Source: Phytoactinopolyspora mesophila (GTDB lineage Bacteria > Actinomycetota > Actinomycetes > Jiangellales > Jiangellaceae). Taken from it: a stretch of 64,000 nt of DNA. Location: assembly GCF_010122465.1 (NCBI RefSeq), contig NZ_WLZY01000010.1, forward strand, positions 1 to 64,000, read 5' to 3'. The number at the start of each line of letters is the position of its first letter. The first letter of the stretch is position 1. The notes under the pieces were generated by a model. The model did no database searches. It saw nothing but the letters and a program-made list of their open reading frames with translations, and had not been told where the DNA came from. Made by a program: the position numbers and the translations under genes. Positions 42,930-48,974 of this stretch are shown one piece after another.

Positions 42930-45593
42930 CTACTGGCAGGAGTCGCATTCGACACGTTCCTGGGGATCGACCGGGCATGCGACGTCACCGACCACATCCG
43001 CTACCTCTTGTTCGACGACTTCCTGTCTTTCGTGCGCAGGCGCCTCCGCGCCGGAACTGGCGTCCTCGGCGGGTCGGCTCACCGCGGAGGCGAAGCCGAA
43101 CCCGCGACGTCGGCTCGAGCCCGGACCGGCATGTGCACCGGAAGCCACGGCTGACGGCCGCCCCGATCCGGCTACCGGCCCGTGTCCGGTGGCCGTCGCC
43201 ACCGCGGGCCGCGGACCATGACCACCCGCACCCGGCGAGGTCTCTGCTTTGTTGACTCGCACCGTGCTGAGTTCGGCCGAATGCCGTGGCTTCATGTGCA
43301 GGTAATACGTGGTTTTCAGGCCCTTGGCCCACGCCTCGGAGTAGATGTCCACCATGTCGCCGAGGTCACGGGTCTCCAGGTACATATTCCGGCTGATCGC
43401 TTGGTCGATCCACTTCTGAGCCCGAGCCGCCACTTCGATAAATGCGTACGGCGACAGCTGGAACGAGGTCTTGTACACAGCCTTGAGATCGTCGGTGACG
43501 TCTTTCAAGGCGGACACGTCACCCTGCGCGCGCAGCAGATCTTCCCGAACCGATTCCCAGAGGCCACGCGCTTTGAGGTCGCTCACCAAGTTACGGTTCA
43601 CCTCGAGGAACTTGCCGGAACTCGTCGCCCGGCTGAAGATCTGCGAAAACTGCGGGTCGAGGCCGGGGGTCGTGCCCGCGACCAATCCGATGGATGCGGT
43701 CGGCGCGATTGCCAGCAGGGTCGCATTACGCATGCCGCCACGCACCTTCGTCCGCAACGAGTCCCAGTCCAGCCGCGCCGTGCGGTCCACCGTCAGCGGC
43801 CGGCCACGTCGCTTCTCGGTGATCCCCACTGTGTCGAACGGCACCATGCCCTGGCTCCAGCGAGAGCCCTGGAAGTTCGCATAGGCGCCGCGTTCACGAG
43901 CCAGGTCGGCACTCGCATCGATGGCGTGCCAGCTCACGAACTCCATCAACCGGTCGATCAGCTCATAGGCCGGTTCGCTCTCATACGACCATCCCAGCCG
44001 CTCGACCACATCGGTGAACCCCATGACTCCCAGCCCGACAGCCCGGTTGAGTTCGTTCGACCGTTCAGCCTCCGGCACCGACGAGATCGTGATGTCGATC
44101 AGGTTGTCCAGCTGCCGGACCGCGAGCCGGACGCTCTGCCGCAGCCGGTCCCATTCGATGGCGTCGTCGATCGAACCGCCTGGGTCGGGCCGGACGTGCC
44201 GGGCCAGGTTGATCGATGCCAGGTTGCACACCGCGACGTTGTCCCGATCCTGCGGCAAGCAGATCTCGGTGCAGAGGTTCGAGAGATGAATGGTCCCGGT
44301 GTTGTTGTTCAGAGCCCGGTTATTGATCGTGTCTTTCCAGGTCAGCCACGGATGCGACGTCGTCTGCAAGCTGATCAGGATCGCCTTGAACTGCTCCCGT
44401 GCCTTGATCTTCTGATACGTGCGGAGCTCACCGTCCTCAGCAGCGGCAACGTACTGCGCATAACGCCGGGAGAAGTCCGCTCCGTAAAGCTCGGTCAGAT
44501 CGGGGACCTCGAGCGGATCGAACAGATACCAGTCATCGTCGTCGGCGACTCGCTTCATGAACTCGTCGGAGATCCACACCGCGGTGTTCGCCGTACGGGT
44601 GCGCCGATACGGATCTCCGGCGTTCTGCCGGAGGTCGAGGAATTGTGGAAAGTCCAGGTGCCAGTTCTCCATGTAGAAACACAGCGCACCGAACTTCTTG
44701 CCGCCGCGAGACACCGCCCGCAAGGTGGAGTCGATCGTGTGCATGAACGGGATCGGTCCCGTCGACGTGGTGTTGTTGCTGCGGATCGGCGACCCTTCAG
44801 CTCGAAGTTTGGTGACCGAGAGCCCGATACCGCCGGTGCCTTTCGTCAGCCACATCACGTCACGAACGCTCTTCGCGATGTGATCGATGTCGTCGTGCAT
44901 CTCCATGACGAAGCAGTTCGACAGCTGCGCGTAGGACGTGCCGGCGTTGACCAGAGTCGATCCGGCAGCGAGATACTCCAGGCGGGACATCTTGTCGTAG
45001 AACTCCAGAGCCGACGTCGTCGGGTCGGGCTCGTTGAGTGCCAAGCCCATGGCCACCCGCATCCAGAAGAACTGCGGCACCTCGAGCAGTTCGCCGGCCG
45101 GTCCACGTACCAGGTACCTGTTACATATGGTCACGGCACCGATATAGCGGAGGAGGTCGTCGCGGCCAGGATCCAGCGCACTCGCGAGCCGCGACATCTC
45201 GAATCGGCTGGCCAGACGGGCGTCGAGCATCCCGGCGGCCACCCCGCTCTGGACGTAACCGGCGAAATGCCGGCGGTGCAGAGCAACCAGCTCATCACCA
45301 CTCTCGTAGTCGCCCAGAACGCGCTTGTACACGGTCTTGAGCAGCAACCGGCTGGCCACCGTGTCGAAGGCCGGGTCATCCTTGACGTTCTGCAGAGCTA
45401 CCTGAATGACCGCCTCGTCCAGCTGTTCGCTGGTCACGCCGTCGAAGAGGGTGATCTCCAGCTCCGACTGAAGCTGGGTGACTCGAACTACTCGGTCGTC
45501 CAGACCCGTGCTGGCCGCTTCAATGGCCCGGGCGATCTTGTAGCCGTCGTACGGCTCCACCGATCCGTCCCGCTTGACGACGGTGATGTTCAT
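42930..45593 (-). CDS. nrdA: Ribonucleotide reductase alpha subunit, class I
   Basis: An 887-residue catalytic subunit. N-terminal ATP-cone at about 1-90 (ITVVKRDGSVEPYDGYKIARAI) for activity control. Catalytic Cys residues appear in QLSNCFVMEM, NLCTEICLP (Cys and Glu) and VAVCNLASINL. The usual core ends about residue 780; then a Gly/Pro/Ala-rich linker of about 90 residues leads to the redox tail ...ECDSCQ, whose CxxC shuttles electrons. The linker is unusually long. The start is fixed by AAGGAGAG 7 bases upstream and by the ATP-cone. Expression is probably under the cobalamin riboswitch upstream. Confidence 0.96.
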   Translation of the reverse strand: MNITVVKRDGSVEPYDGYKIARAIEAASTGLDDRVVRVTQLQSELEITLFDGVTSEQLDEAVIQVALQNVKDDPAFDTVASRLLLKTVYKRVLGDYESGDELVALHRRHFAGYVQSGVAAGMLDARLASRFEMSRLASALDPGRDDLLRYIGAVTICNRYLVRGPAGELLEVPQFFWMRVAMGLALNEPDPTTSALEFYDKMSRLEYLAAGSTLVNAGTSYAQLSNCFVMEMHDDIDHIAKSVRDVMWLTKGTGGIGLSVTKLRAEGSPIRSNNTTSTGPIPFMHTIDSTLRAVSRGGKKFGALCFYMENWHLDFPQFLDLRQNAGDPYRRTRTANTAVWISDEFMKRVADDDDWYLFDPLEVPDLTELYGADFSRRYAQYVAAAEDGELRTYQKIKAREQFKAILISLQTTSHPWLTWKDTINNRALNNNTGTIHLSNLCTEICLPQDRDNVAVCNLASINLARHVRPDPGGSIDDAIEWDRLRQSVRLAVRQLDNLIDITISSVPEAERSNELNRAVGLGVMGFTDVVERLGWSYESEPAYELIDRLMEFVSWHAIDASADLARERGAYANFQGSRWSQGMVPFDTVGITEKRRGRPLTVDRTARLDWDSLRTKVRGGMRNATLLAIAPTASIGLVAGTTPGLDPQFSQIFSRATSSGKFLEVNRNLVSDLKARGLWESVREDLLRAQGDVSALKDVTDDLKAVYKTSFQLSPYAFIEVAARAQKWIDQAISRNMYLETRDLGDMVDIYSEAWAKGLKTTYYLHMKPRHSAELSTVRVNKAETSPGAGGHGPRPAVATATGHGPVAGSGRPSAVASGAHAGPGSSRRRGFGFASAVSRPAEDASSGAEAPAHERQEVVEQEVADVVGDVACPVDPQERVECDSCQ

Positions 45594-45761
45594 GCGCTCT
45601 CCTTGCGAGTTCGTCGTTTCCAGGGTCGTAGAACTCGAGGCAGGGCAAGGGATCGCGACGGCAGATACCGCCGGTGGCAGATTCAGCCGCCGGTAGCTTG
45701 GCAGTCTCGTCCCCTGGCCTTCCCTCGAGACCACGGACTGTCGCACCACTGAATGCGACGC

Positions 45762-45990
45762 GCTGGCAGGTTTTCGGACTCACGGGCGATGACGCCCCTC
45801 ATACCGAGGACGCCGGCCTACTGACCGTCGCTTCCCAGGCTGGCGGCGTCGCCGATCTCGTGAAGATCGAACGCCTGCCGACCCAGTGCTTCTGACGGGG
45901 TTCGTTCCCGTACACCGCTGCGGGGCAGTCCCGGCCTCTCACCGGGTTCCCTGTTGCCGCTCCAACTCTGGATGACCTGAAGCACCAGCT
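45762..45990 (-). ncRNA. Cobalamin riboswitch upstream of nrdA
   Basis: On the minus strand the region contains the B12-box core AACAGGGAACCCGGTG, then CCGGGACTGCCCCGCAGCGG, and near the 3' end GTCCGAAAACCTGCCAGC. The 5' GCTGG...AGGT can pair with ACCT..CCAGC to close P1. These are the hallmarks of adenosylcobalamin riboswitches. It sits about 170 bases before the nrdA start, so B12 should reduce nrdAB expression, as described for Streptomyces class I reductase. The expression platform lies within 45594-45761; I did not resolve the alternative hairpins. Confidence 0.93.
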
Positions 45991-46155
45991 GATCTGACCA
46001 CACTATCTTGTAGTTACGACGATGCAAGTCACCTATATGTTGTGGCGTGTCGCACGTTGGCGGGAAGTGAGTGCTAGTCGTCCGTTATTCGCTATCGGTT
46101 GGATACCCGGCGCCACGAGAATGTCTGCGTACATCACTCACATACGGAGACATTC

Positions 46156-47247: not shown

Positions 47248-48636
47248 TCAGTTCAGCGCGAGTTCATGCTCCTGCGCCGGGGCATCGAGCACCACGCCGG
47301 CACCGACCGAGTGCATGATCCGCATGGACTGAAGCGCGCGATCATATGCCTCGAGCGCCTCGTCCGTCCGGCCGAGATCCCGGTAGAGATCACCGAGCTC
47401 GCGCCAGGCCGCGGCGGCCCGCCGGGACGCACCCATGGCCTCCAGCATGGAGGCCGCCAGAGCACCTTCGCGCGCACTCTGGTCGACGTCACCTTCAGCA
47501 CGGAGTACCCGAGCGAGAACCAAACGTGCCCGAGCCGCCTCCATCCGCGGCTGGTCATCCAGATCACGCAGGGCCGACTGCGCGGCTTCATGAGCTTCGT
47601 CCAGCCGTCCGAGAGTCAGCAGCGCATCCGCGCGAGTGCTGTCCAGGTGCCGGATGTCGTCCACGCCACCCTGCGTGGTGATCTCGCGGCGAACGCTGTC
47701 GAGGAGATCAAGGGCCTCAGTGGCCCGGGGTTCGTCTCCCTGCAGGAGTAGCCAGGCGTAAGCCATCCGCAGCCGCGCCAGGTTGCGGCGGTCGTCACCC
47801 TCGCCGAACAACGCTAGTGCGCGATCAACCAGATTGAGCGCCTGCGCGAGGTCACCACGGGATTCAGCGATCACGGAGGCGTTCCAGTAGGCAGCTCCCC
47901 GGGTGTGAGGCGCGCCCATCTCATCAGCGGCCCGCACCAGCTCGGCCGCGAGCGTCCGCGAACGGACGATGTCACCGCGGCCGTGATAGGCGCTGAGCAC
48001 CGTGCAACCGAGCCGGACGTATTCGTCGGTGTGCTCCAGCCCCATCTCGCTGGCCGAACGCATTGCTTCCTCGCCGATCTGGATAGCCATGTCGAGGTCG
48101 CCCGCGCTCTGGTAGCAGCGAGACATTGCCAACGCGACGTCGAGCCACGGCTGAACCTCGGGCGCCTGCCGGGCCTCGTCGGCCAGCCCACCCAGGAGGT
48201 CGATGGCACCCTCGATGTCGCCCTTGCGCTCCAGCGCCTGCGCCTGCCCGAGGCGAGCCTGACGGCTCTGCTCGTCGTTGAGGCCGGGGTCACCGATCAA
48301 CGCCGTGAAGCCGTCGTATGCGTCGTCGGCCCGGCCGTCGTAAAGCGCCTTCTCGGCCCGGCCAAGAGCCAGGCGGGCACGAGTACGAACCGAGGCGTCG
48401 ACACCGTCCCGCAGATACTCGACATCAATGCGCAGGCGTTCCGCAATATGCGCCAGCGCGGCAGCAGCGGGCTGACGGCGACCGCTCTCGACGAGCGAAA
48501 CATAGCTGGGAGACAACATTCCCTCGGCGATATCCGCCTGGGAAAGGCCCAGTTCCACCCGCCGTGTGCGAATACGCTGACCGACGGGCGTTGGGACCGG
48601 CGCCTCGTCAAGTGTTGCTTGTGGCTGCTCTGTCAT
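47248..48636 (-). CDS. HTH-TPR transcriptional regulator (XRE family, RRNPP-like architecture)
   Basis: A 462-residue regulator. The N-terminal Cro/C1-type HTH (about 17-72) reads VGQRIRTRRVELGLSQADIAEG and YVSLVESGRRQP. From about 85 to the end it is built of TPR-like helix pairs (GRAEKALYDGRADDAYDGFTALI; LGDLYRDLGRTDEALEAYDRAL), about nine repeats. HTH plus TPR is the arrangement of Rgg, PlcR and PrgX-type receptors that bind small peptides. It is divergent from a 42-codon secreted-peptide gene, with only 62 bases between the start codons. I infer that the peptide or a processed form is its ligand. No other adjacent gene suggests a different partner. Confidence 0.9.
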   Translation of the reverse strand: MTEQPQATLDEAPVPTPVGQRIRTRRVELGLSQADIAEGMLSPSYVSLVESGRRQPAAAALAHIAERLRIDVEYLRDGVDASVRTRARLALGRAEKALYDGRADDAYDGFTALIGDPGLNDEQSRQARLGQAQALERKGDIEGAIDLLGGLADEARQAPEVQPWLDVALAMSRCYQSAGDLDMAIQIGEEAMRSASEMGLEHTDEYVRLGCTVLSAYHGRGDIVRSRTLAAELVRAADEMGAPHTRGAAYWNASVIAESRGDLAQALNLVDRALALFGEGDDRRNLARLRMAYAWLLLQGDEPRATEALDLLDSVRREITTQGGVDDIRHLDSTRADALLTLGRLDEAHEAAQSALRDLDDQPRMEAARARLVLARVLRAEGDVDQSAREGALAASMLEAMGASRRAAAAWRELGDLYRDLGRTDEALEAYDRALQSMRIMHSVGAGVVLDAPAQEHELALN

Positions 48637-48698
48637 GACACTATTGCACTACAGGTAGTCATTTTTTGCTAGTCCTAGTGACCAGGAGGTCGATCTCG
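48637..48698. promoter_or_regulatory. Divergent promoter/operator of HTH-TPR regulator and secreted peptide
   Basis: 62 bases separate the two start codons. Inside are the palindrome ACTACAGGTAGT (48648-48659), a T-run, and CTAGTCCTAG (48669-48678), which could be paired regulator sites. AGGAGGT at 48684-48690 is the peptide Shine-Dalgarno. The region is A/T-richer than its surroundings. Any regulator bound here would control both genes. Confidence 0.6.
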
Positions 48699-48827
48699 GT
48701 GGCCCGTCTCAGGCGCGTACTGGCTGTCACACTCGCGGCACTTACCCTGACGGCGGCTGCTGCAACAGTTGCCGCACCGGCATCTGCTGACACGATCGAG
48801 CCCAACTGGCCAACTATGTGCTGCTAG
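48699..48827 (+). CDS. Small secreted peptide, candidate signalling peptide
   Basis: A 42-codon gene, too short for normal gene callers. GTG start with AGGAGGT 8 bases upstream. Residues 1-30 are a clear Sec signal peptide: basic MARLRR, hydrophobic Ala/Leu/Thr core, and cleavage site APASA-DT. The predicted mature peptide is DTIEPNWPTMCC, 12 residues with two C-terminal cysteines. An intrinsic terminator follows 16 bases after the TAG. The divergent neighbour is an HTH-TPR regulator, so a pheromone-receptor pair is plausible. I know no characterised family with this mature sequence. Confidence 0.82.
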   Translation: MARLRRVLAVTLAALTLTAAAATVAAPASADTIEPNWPTMCC

Positions 48828-48843
48828 CAGTAGCATTGAAGAC

Positions 48844-48902
48844 GCACGGACGACTAGCTGCGTCTCGCCCCCCGAACGCAGGTATGTCGTCCGTGCCTTT
48901 TT
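48844..48902 (+). terminator. Intrinsic terminator of the secreted-peptide gene
   Basis: Perfect 11-base arms GCACGGACGAC (48844-48854) and GTCGTCCGTGC (48886-48896), an inner 6-base stem (CTGCGT/ACGCAG), then CTTTTT at 48897-48902. This is the only classic hairpin-plus-T-run terminator I noticed in the window, and it defines a short monocistronic transcript of about 200 bases. Confidence 0.88.
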
Positions 48903-48974
48903 GCGCCCTGTGACCTCAGTACTTTCTCACTGACTGTCACCAGTTACTCACACTCAGTGACTATGTCGCATTGC

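Follow-up and report, generated by a model that had tools for sequence, protein, structure and literature searches.

In the RRNPP systems of Firmicutes (PlcR-PapR, NprR-NprX, Rgg-SHP, ComR-ComS, Rap-Phr and AimR-arbitrium), a receptor built of an XRE helix-turn-helix (HTH) and TPR repeats is encoded beside a short, Sec-secreted propeptide, an arrangement shared by the pair of genes described here. The 'strict' definition of such gene pairs in RRNPP_detector comprises a TPR receptor of 250–500 aa and a secreted propeptide of 10–100 aa; the accompanying survey covered Firmicutes and viruses only, and records that the signals described from Actinobacteria are typically enzyme-made small molecules (PMC10075063, 2023). 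Searches of the open-access literature on actinobacterial RRNPP and peptide quorum sensing yielded no earlier description of the present family. In Streptomyces coelicolor, the BldK oligopeptide permease and an unidentified extracellular peptide signal suggest that actinomycetes re-import signalling peptides, although no receptor of the HTH-TPR family is known to be linked to BldK and no sequence evidence connects it with the pair analysed here. The NsdA-family TPR regulators of Streptomyces (NF053720) are likewise actinobacterial and of similar length, and match our regulator weakly over its TPR part (29.4 bits, E 5.6e-7), but this is far below the curated cut-off of 75 bits and membership was rejected; no secreted peptide is known to be linked to that family.

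The window, a 64,000-nucleotide stretch of the 6.5 Mb genome of the soil bacterium Phytoactinopolyspora mesophila, for which the nearest named relatives were Phytoactinopolyspora and then Jiangella, encodes on its minus strand (47248–48636) a 462 aa HTH-TPR regulator, a candidate cytoplasmic peptide receptor that matches Pfam HTH_3 and TPR families and is conserved one-to-one in Jiangellaceae. An XRE HTH at residues 22–75 (48412–48573, minus strand; HTH_3, E 6.8e-9) is followed at residues 81–437 (47326–48396, minus strand) by a TPR superhelix of 18 helices, or nine pairs, in an AlphaFold model built from a 10-sequence alignment (mean pLDDT 72, with the HTH modelled poorly), bearing out the HTH and approximately nine TPR-like repeats of an earlier, sequence-only reading of this DNA. 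The model aligned to the Rap and NprR pheromone receptors with Z of 20–23 across ~300 residues (VIA-align), a TPR-fold match that is not specific, as LGN and other TPR proteins scored equally high. In sequence profile searches, PlcR (E 2.4e-14, spanning the HTH and the first part of the TPR region) was the sole match near the top that was clearly RRNPP in full architecture, which is weak evidence of membership because of the TPR repeats, and the Pfam matches were to general HTH and TPR models only, with no RNPP-specific domain among them.

Divergent from the regulator, across a gap of exactly 62 bases (48637–48698), lies a gene of 42 codons on the plus strand (48699–48827), with a Shine-Dalgarno sequence AGGAGGT (48684–48690) and a GTG start. 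Its product has a positively charged start and a hydrophobic core, together with an ASA site, and is divided into a predicted signal peptide (residues 1–30, 48699–48788, MARLRRVLAVTLAALTLTAAAATVAAPASA) and a predicted mature peptide (48789–48824, DTIEPNWPTMCC); signal peptides throughout were assigned by rule, from hydrophobicity, charge and an AxA site. The spacing, the Shine-Dalgarno sequence, the GTG start and the ASA site had been read from the letters alone, and all were found again. Divergence in the frame was that of a coding sequence: dN/dS was 0.17 among six Phytoactinopolyspora-type genomes, in which substitutions fell mostly at third codon positions (120/65/301 for first, second and third), and 0.40 among thirteen Jiangella-type genomes, compared with pN/pS of 1.1–3.2 in two alternative frames of the same DNA. 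The sequence-only reading had named neutral change in this frame beforehand as the outcome that would count against it, and what was observed was amino acid conservation; these comparisons indicate that the 42-codon ORF is a real gene under purifying selection rather than a chance frame. An orthologue was present in 20/20 Jiangellaceae genomes with a readable upstream region (a twenty-first regulator, with only ~210 bases of upstream sequence, lies outside this count), and in every one the final two residues were Cys-Cys, preceded by variable residues. An XRE HTH followed by a TPR superhelix, with an adjacent short gene for a propeptide that is predicted to be Sec-exported and is under selection, places the pair within the RRNPP_detector 'strict' definition (PMC10075063).

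The pair is not confined to this genome. The regulator was found in 21/22 Jiangellaceae genomes, in 61/394 class-wide genomes at E 1e-40 (those of Jiangellaceae included) and in 168/251 genomes of a family, f17, taken as Streptosporangiaceae because the named relatives of its proteins are Nonomuraea and Streptosporangium. The pair is conserved in all readable Jiangellaceae and is seen again in seven other families as well as on plasmids of Streptomyces, Cys-Cys ORFs being found in families f1, f9, f14, f17, f20, f26, f27 and f38 and on those plasmids. A small secreted ORF ending exactly in Cys-Cys-stop lay near 115 of 156 distinct related regulators, in four orientations, although these regulators were sampled by similarity to ours and the species are related, so the counts do not represent independent events. 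A first neighbourhood scan gave 104 regulators with such an ORF, and reading the downstream sides added 11. In ten of these a downstream ORF points back towards the regulator, in nine cases within 400 bases and in the tenth at 1.8 kb; the eleventh, from a Streptomyces plasmid, has its ORF two genes downstream. Approximately 19 of the 156 had no detectable peptide nearby. Across 677 kb of regulator loci, some of them overlapping, we counted 124 secreted Cys-Cys ORFs; 129 kb of real sequence other than these loci and 430 kb of shuffled sequence contained none. The sequence-only reading had held that homologous regulators without an adjacent small secreted frame would tell against it; such frames are, on this evidence, the usual neighbours. 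Its guess at a terminal Cys was near-universally right, as Cys-Cys, while the N-W-P motif proved merely local: in most homologues of the family it is the terminal Cys-Cys alone that is kept, and among 112 distinct 12-residue C-termini position −3 was mostly Y, F, W, H, L or M.

Plasmid pADI95-16a has its Cys-Cys ORF downstream of the regulator, in the same direction, where the annotation lists only a hypothetical protein. A plasmid of Streptomyces sp. NBC_01707 likewise encodes, two genes from its HTH-TPR regulator, a secreted peptide with the C-terminus DLPLCC that is recorded as a 'hypothetical protein' (WP_331750220.1; 5702–5866 of locus L199). Separately, a Streptosporangiaceae regulator subfamily (loci L051, L052, L053, L177, L180, L184, L188, L191 and L192) carries E at the position of N252, and no peptide could be detected in the sequence that was read; its peptide may have been lost or may be located elsewhere.

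Not all of the peptides end in Cys-Cys. In one f17 regulator clade (SH-aLRT 95) they lack Cys and end in a W-P motif, for example GWNHPD, GWGWPG or SWSYPD, and the divergent ORF of locus L164 (G569:C1), like that of L216, encodes a secreted precursor in which GWNGPD occurs four times, against a single copy in sister genomes. At the DNA level the L164 copies hardly differ; they are therefore recent, and synonymous differences between them cannot show selection. Outside the class, five f90/f94 loci (L222, L223, L224, L226 and L227, one with a truncated regulator) have divergent precursors of 28–30 aa ending FPWGGT, FPGP or, in most, FPWPK or YPWPK, and their mature parts can be only five to seven residues long. 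Mature segments this short, and a short unit that is repeated, would be expected of a pheromone. The regulators differ along with the peptides: T212 was kept in 111/115 Cys-Cys-linked regulators compared with 2/16 of the W-P clade, and N252 in 104/115 compared with 0/16, while A248 was replaced by L or M in 16/16 of the W-P clade and T212 by I or V in three aligned FPW-type regulators. Counted against the TPR consensus, residues 212 and 252 occupy position 6 of helix A in neighbouring repeats and residue 248 position 2, which we take to be the ligand-contacting positions of known TPR clamps; given the residue survey, the modelled helices and the Rap and NprR fold matches, T212 and N252 are candidate contacts for the peptide tail. 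The change of both residues with peptide type is suggestive but not statistically significant, because peptide type switched independently just twice among the regulators compared. As read from the genomes compared, both genes exist, selection acts on the peptide frame, linkage of the pair holds across families, and regulator and peptide each vary by clade. The breadth of the family, the GWNHPD and FPWPK classes, the multi-copy precursor and the TPR residues that track peptide type all go beyond the sequence-only reading.

In Streptosporangiaceae the pair has a consistent neighbour, with copC-copD directly downstream of the regulator and on the same strand in 23/23 readable loci (L105–L132 and L193, the last with ctaG as well), whatever the peptide class. 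Two adjacent cysteines at a C-terminus bind soft metals well, and this link makes a copper-binding peptide a live rival: the Cys-Cys peptide would handle a metal or thiol such as Cu(I), and the TPR regulator would control copper or redox genes rather than respond to a cell-density signal. We nevertheless consider it unlikely, since 7 of the same 23 loci carry Cys-free peptides and cop genes are absent from the flanks of the pair in Jiangellaceae and in the other peptide-bearing families read, and since it accounts neither for the variability ahead of Cys-Cys nor for the GWNGPD precursor with its four copies or FPWPK. As an observation apart, copC-copD is a possible target operon in Streptosporangiaceae.

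A divergent regulator-target layout, a variable mature part and a small secreted product would also suit an effector, that is, an antimicrobial or modified peptide whose ordinary repressor is the TPR protein, itself sensing something else. Such an account is improbable: the neighbours scanned for protein families included no recognisable modification enzyme, exporter or immunity gene, mature parts run down to five to seven residues, and the groove residues of the regulator change with the peptide tail.

The shared promoter contains two short palindromes, as anticipated before this analysis, both of them candidate operators. One, TGTCATGACA (48631–48640), overlaps the ATG of the regulator, occurs once in the window and is conserved in Jiangellaceae; the other, ACTACAGGTAGT (48648–48659), is kept in most Phytoactinopolyspora but not in Jiangella. 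By eye, promoter elements vary by family, Jiangellaceae having TGTCATGACA over the regulator start and f17 a TTGAC-x-x-GTCAC box at the same place, which could be the −35 element of the peptide promoter.

Downstream of the peptide gene is a terminator-like structure on the plus strand (48844–48902), consisting of a strong hairpin (48844–48896) and then a T run, with a folding z of −4.97 for 48800–48910, in agreement with the terminator read there from the letters alone. Its 18-base loop region, CGTCTCGCCCCCCGAACG (48861–48878), is single-copy in the source genome and exact in 20/20 Jiangellaceae, in which the stem varies in sequence with pairing kept (80% in register, compared with 35–43% out of register). 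That the ORF is a cysteine-responsive leader (attenuator), its terminal Cys codons sensing charged tRNA-Cys, draws on the Cys-Cys-stop lying 16 nt ahead of this hairpin with its loop invariant in Jiangellaceae, but is very improbable, as the signal peptide is under purifying selection, the gene after the hairpin is a convergent aminotransferase (48975 onwards, minus strand) rather than a co-directional one, the conserved loop was not seen 3′ of the peptide gene in other families, and some peptide classes have no Cys. Rfam covariance models gave no match to the hairpin at E up to 10, and 6C RNA, or another known RNA, was rejected as an identity for this C-rich structure; three exact matches of the loop in viral contigs were all one unrelated sequence, and are attributed to chance. 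The hairpin may be a C-rich-loop regulatory RNA derived from the peptide mRNA. Elsewhere in the window, a cobalamin riboswitch (45748–46004, minus strand, 82 bits) lies directly upstream of a putative ribonucleotide reductase large subunit (42930–45749, minus strand, identified by eye), an ordinary arrangement known from Streptomyces.

We therefore favour, with a probability of roughly 0.7, a peptide-signalling cassette that would work like the RRNPP systems of Firmicutes while forming an actinobacterial family of its own, the export, trimming, import and binding of the peptide all being inferred. The adjacent secreted ORFs and the conserved frame lend support to the candidate actinobacterial peptide-signalling system first proposed from the sequence. 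Likeness to RRNPP extends to the PlcR profile match and to the fold matches of the regulator with Rap and NprR; the differences are an Actinomycetota host, a longer TPR array (nine helix pairs), peptide tails of Cys-Cys, W-x-x-P-D or F/Y-P-W-P-K, a variable position of the peptide gene, and binding and import steps that are so far predicted. Under such signalling, the 42 aa precursor would be exported via the Sec route and cut by signal peptidase, perhaps with further trimming, and the mature peptide would build up outside the cell and re-enter through an Opp/Dpp-type permease; the source genome has 33 matches to SBP_bac_5 (peptide-permease binding protein), which stand as importer candidates. 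The C-terminal residues, here Cys-Cys, would then dock near T212 and N252 in the concave groove of the TPR superhelix, altering HTH occupancy of the shared promoter (TGTCATGACA and neighbours) and of other targets, while the species-variable residues ahead of Cys-Cys would give specificity.

The pair probably represents peptide signalling of an undescribed kind, in bacteria not known for systems of this type. We also lean towards a broader proposal, of ribosomal pheromones phylum-wide in Actinomycetota, whereby HTH-TPR receptors would read a C-terminal code (Cys-Cys, W-x-x-P-D or F/Y-P-W-P-K) and pherotypes would diversify upstream of it, with a link to copper genes in Streptosporangiaceae. 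If the peptide-signalling reading is right, such a system goes unannotated in many genera of actinomycetes. Short synthetic peptides, designed from the sequences, would allow pheromone, receptor and likely specificity residues to be tested directly, and the system might, speculatively, offer a handle on development and on silent biosynthetic clusters.
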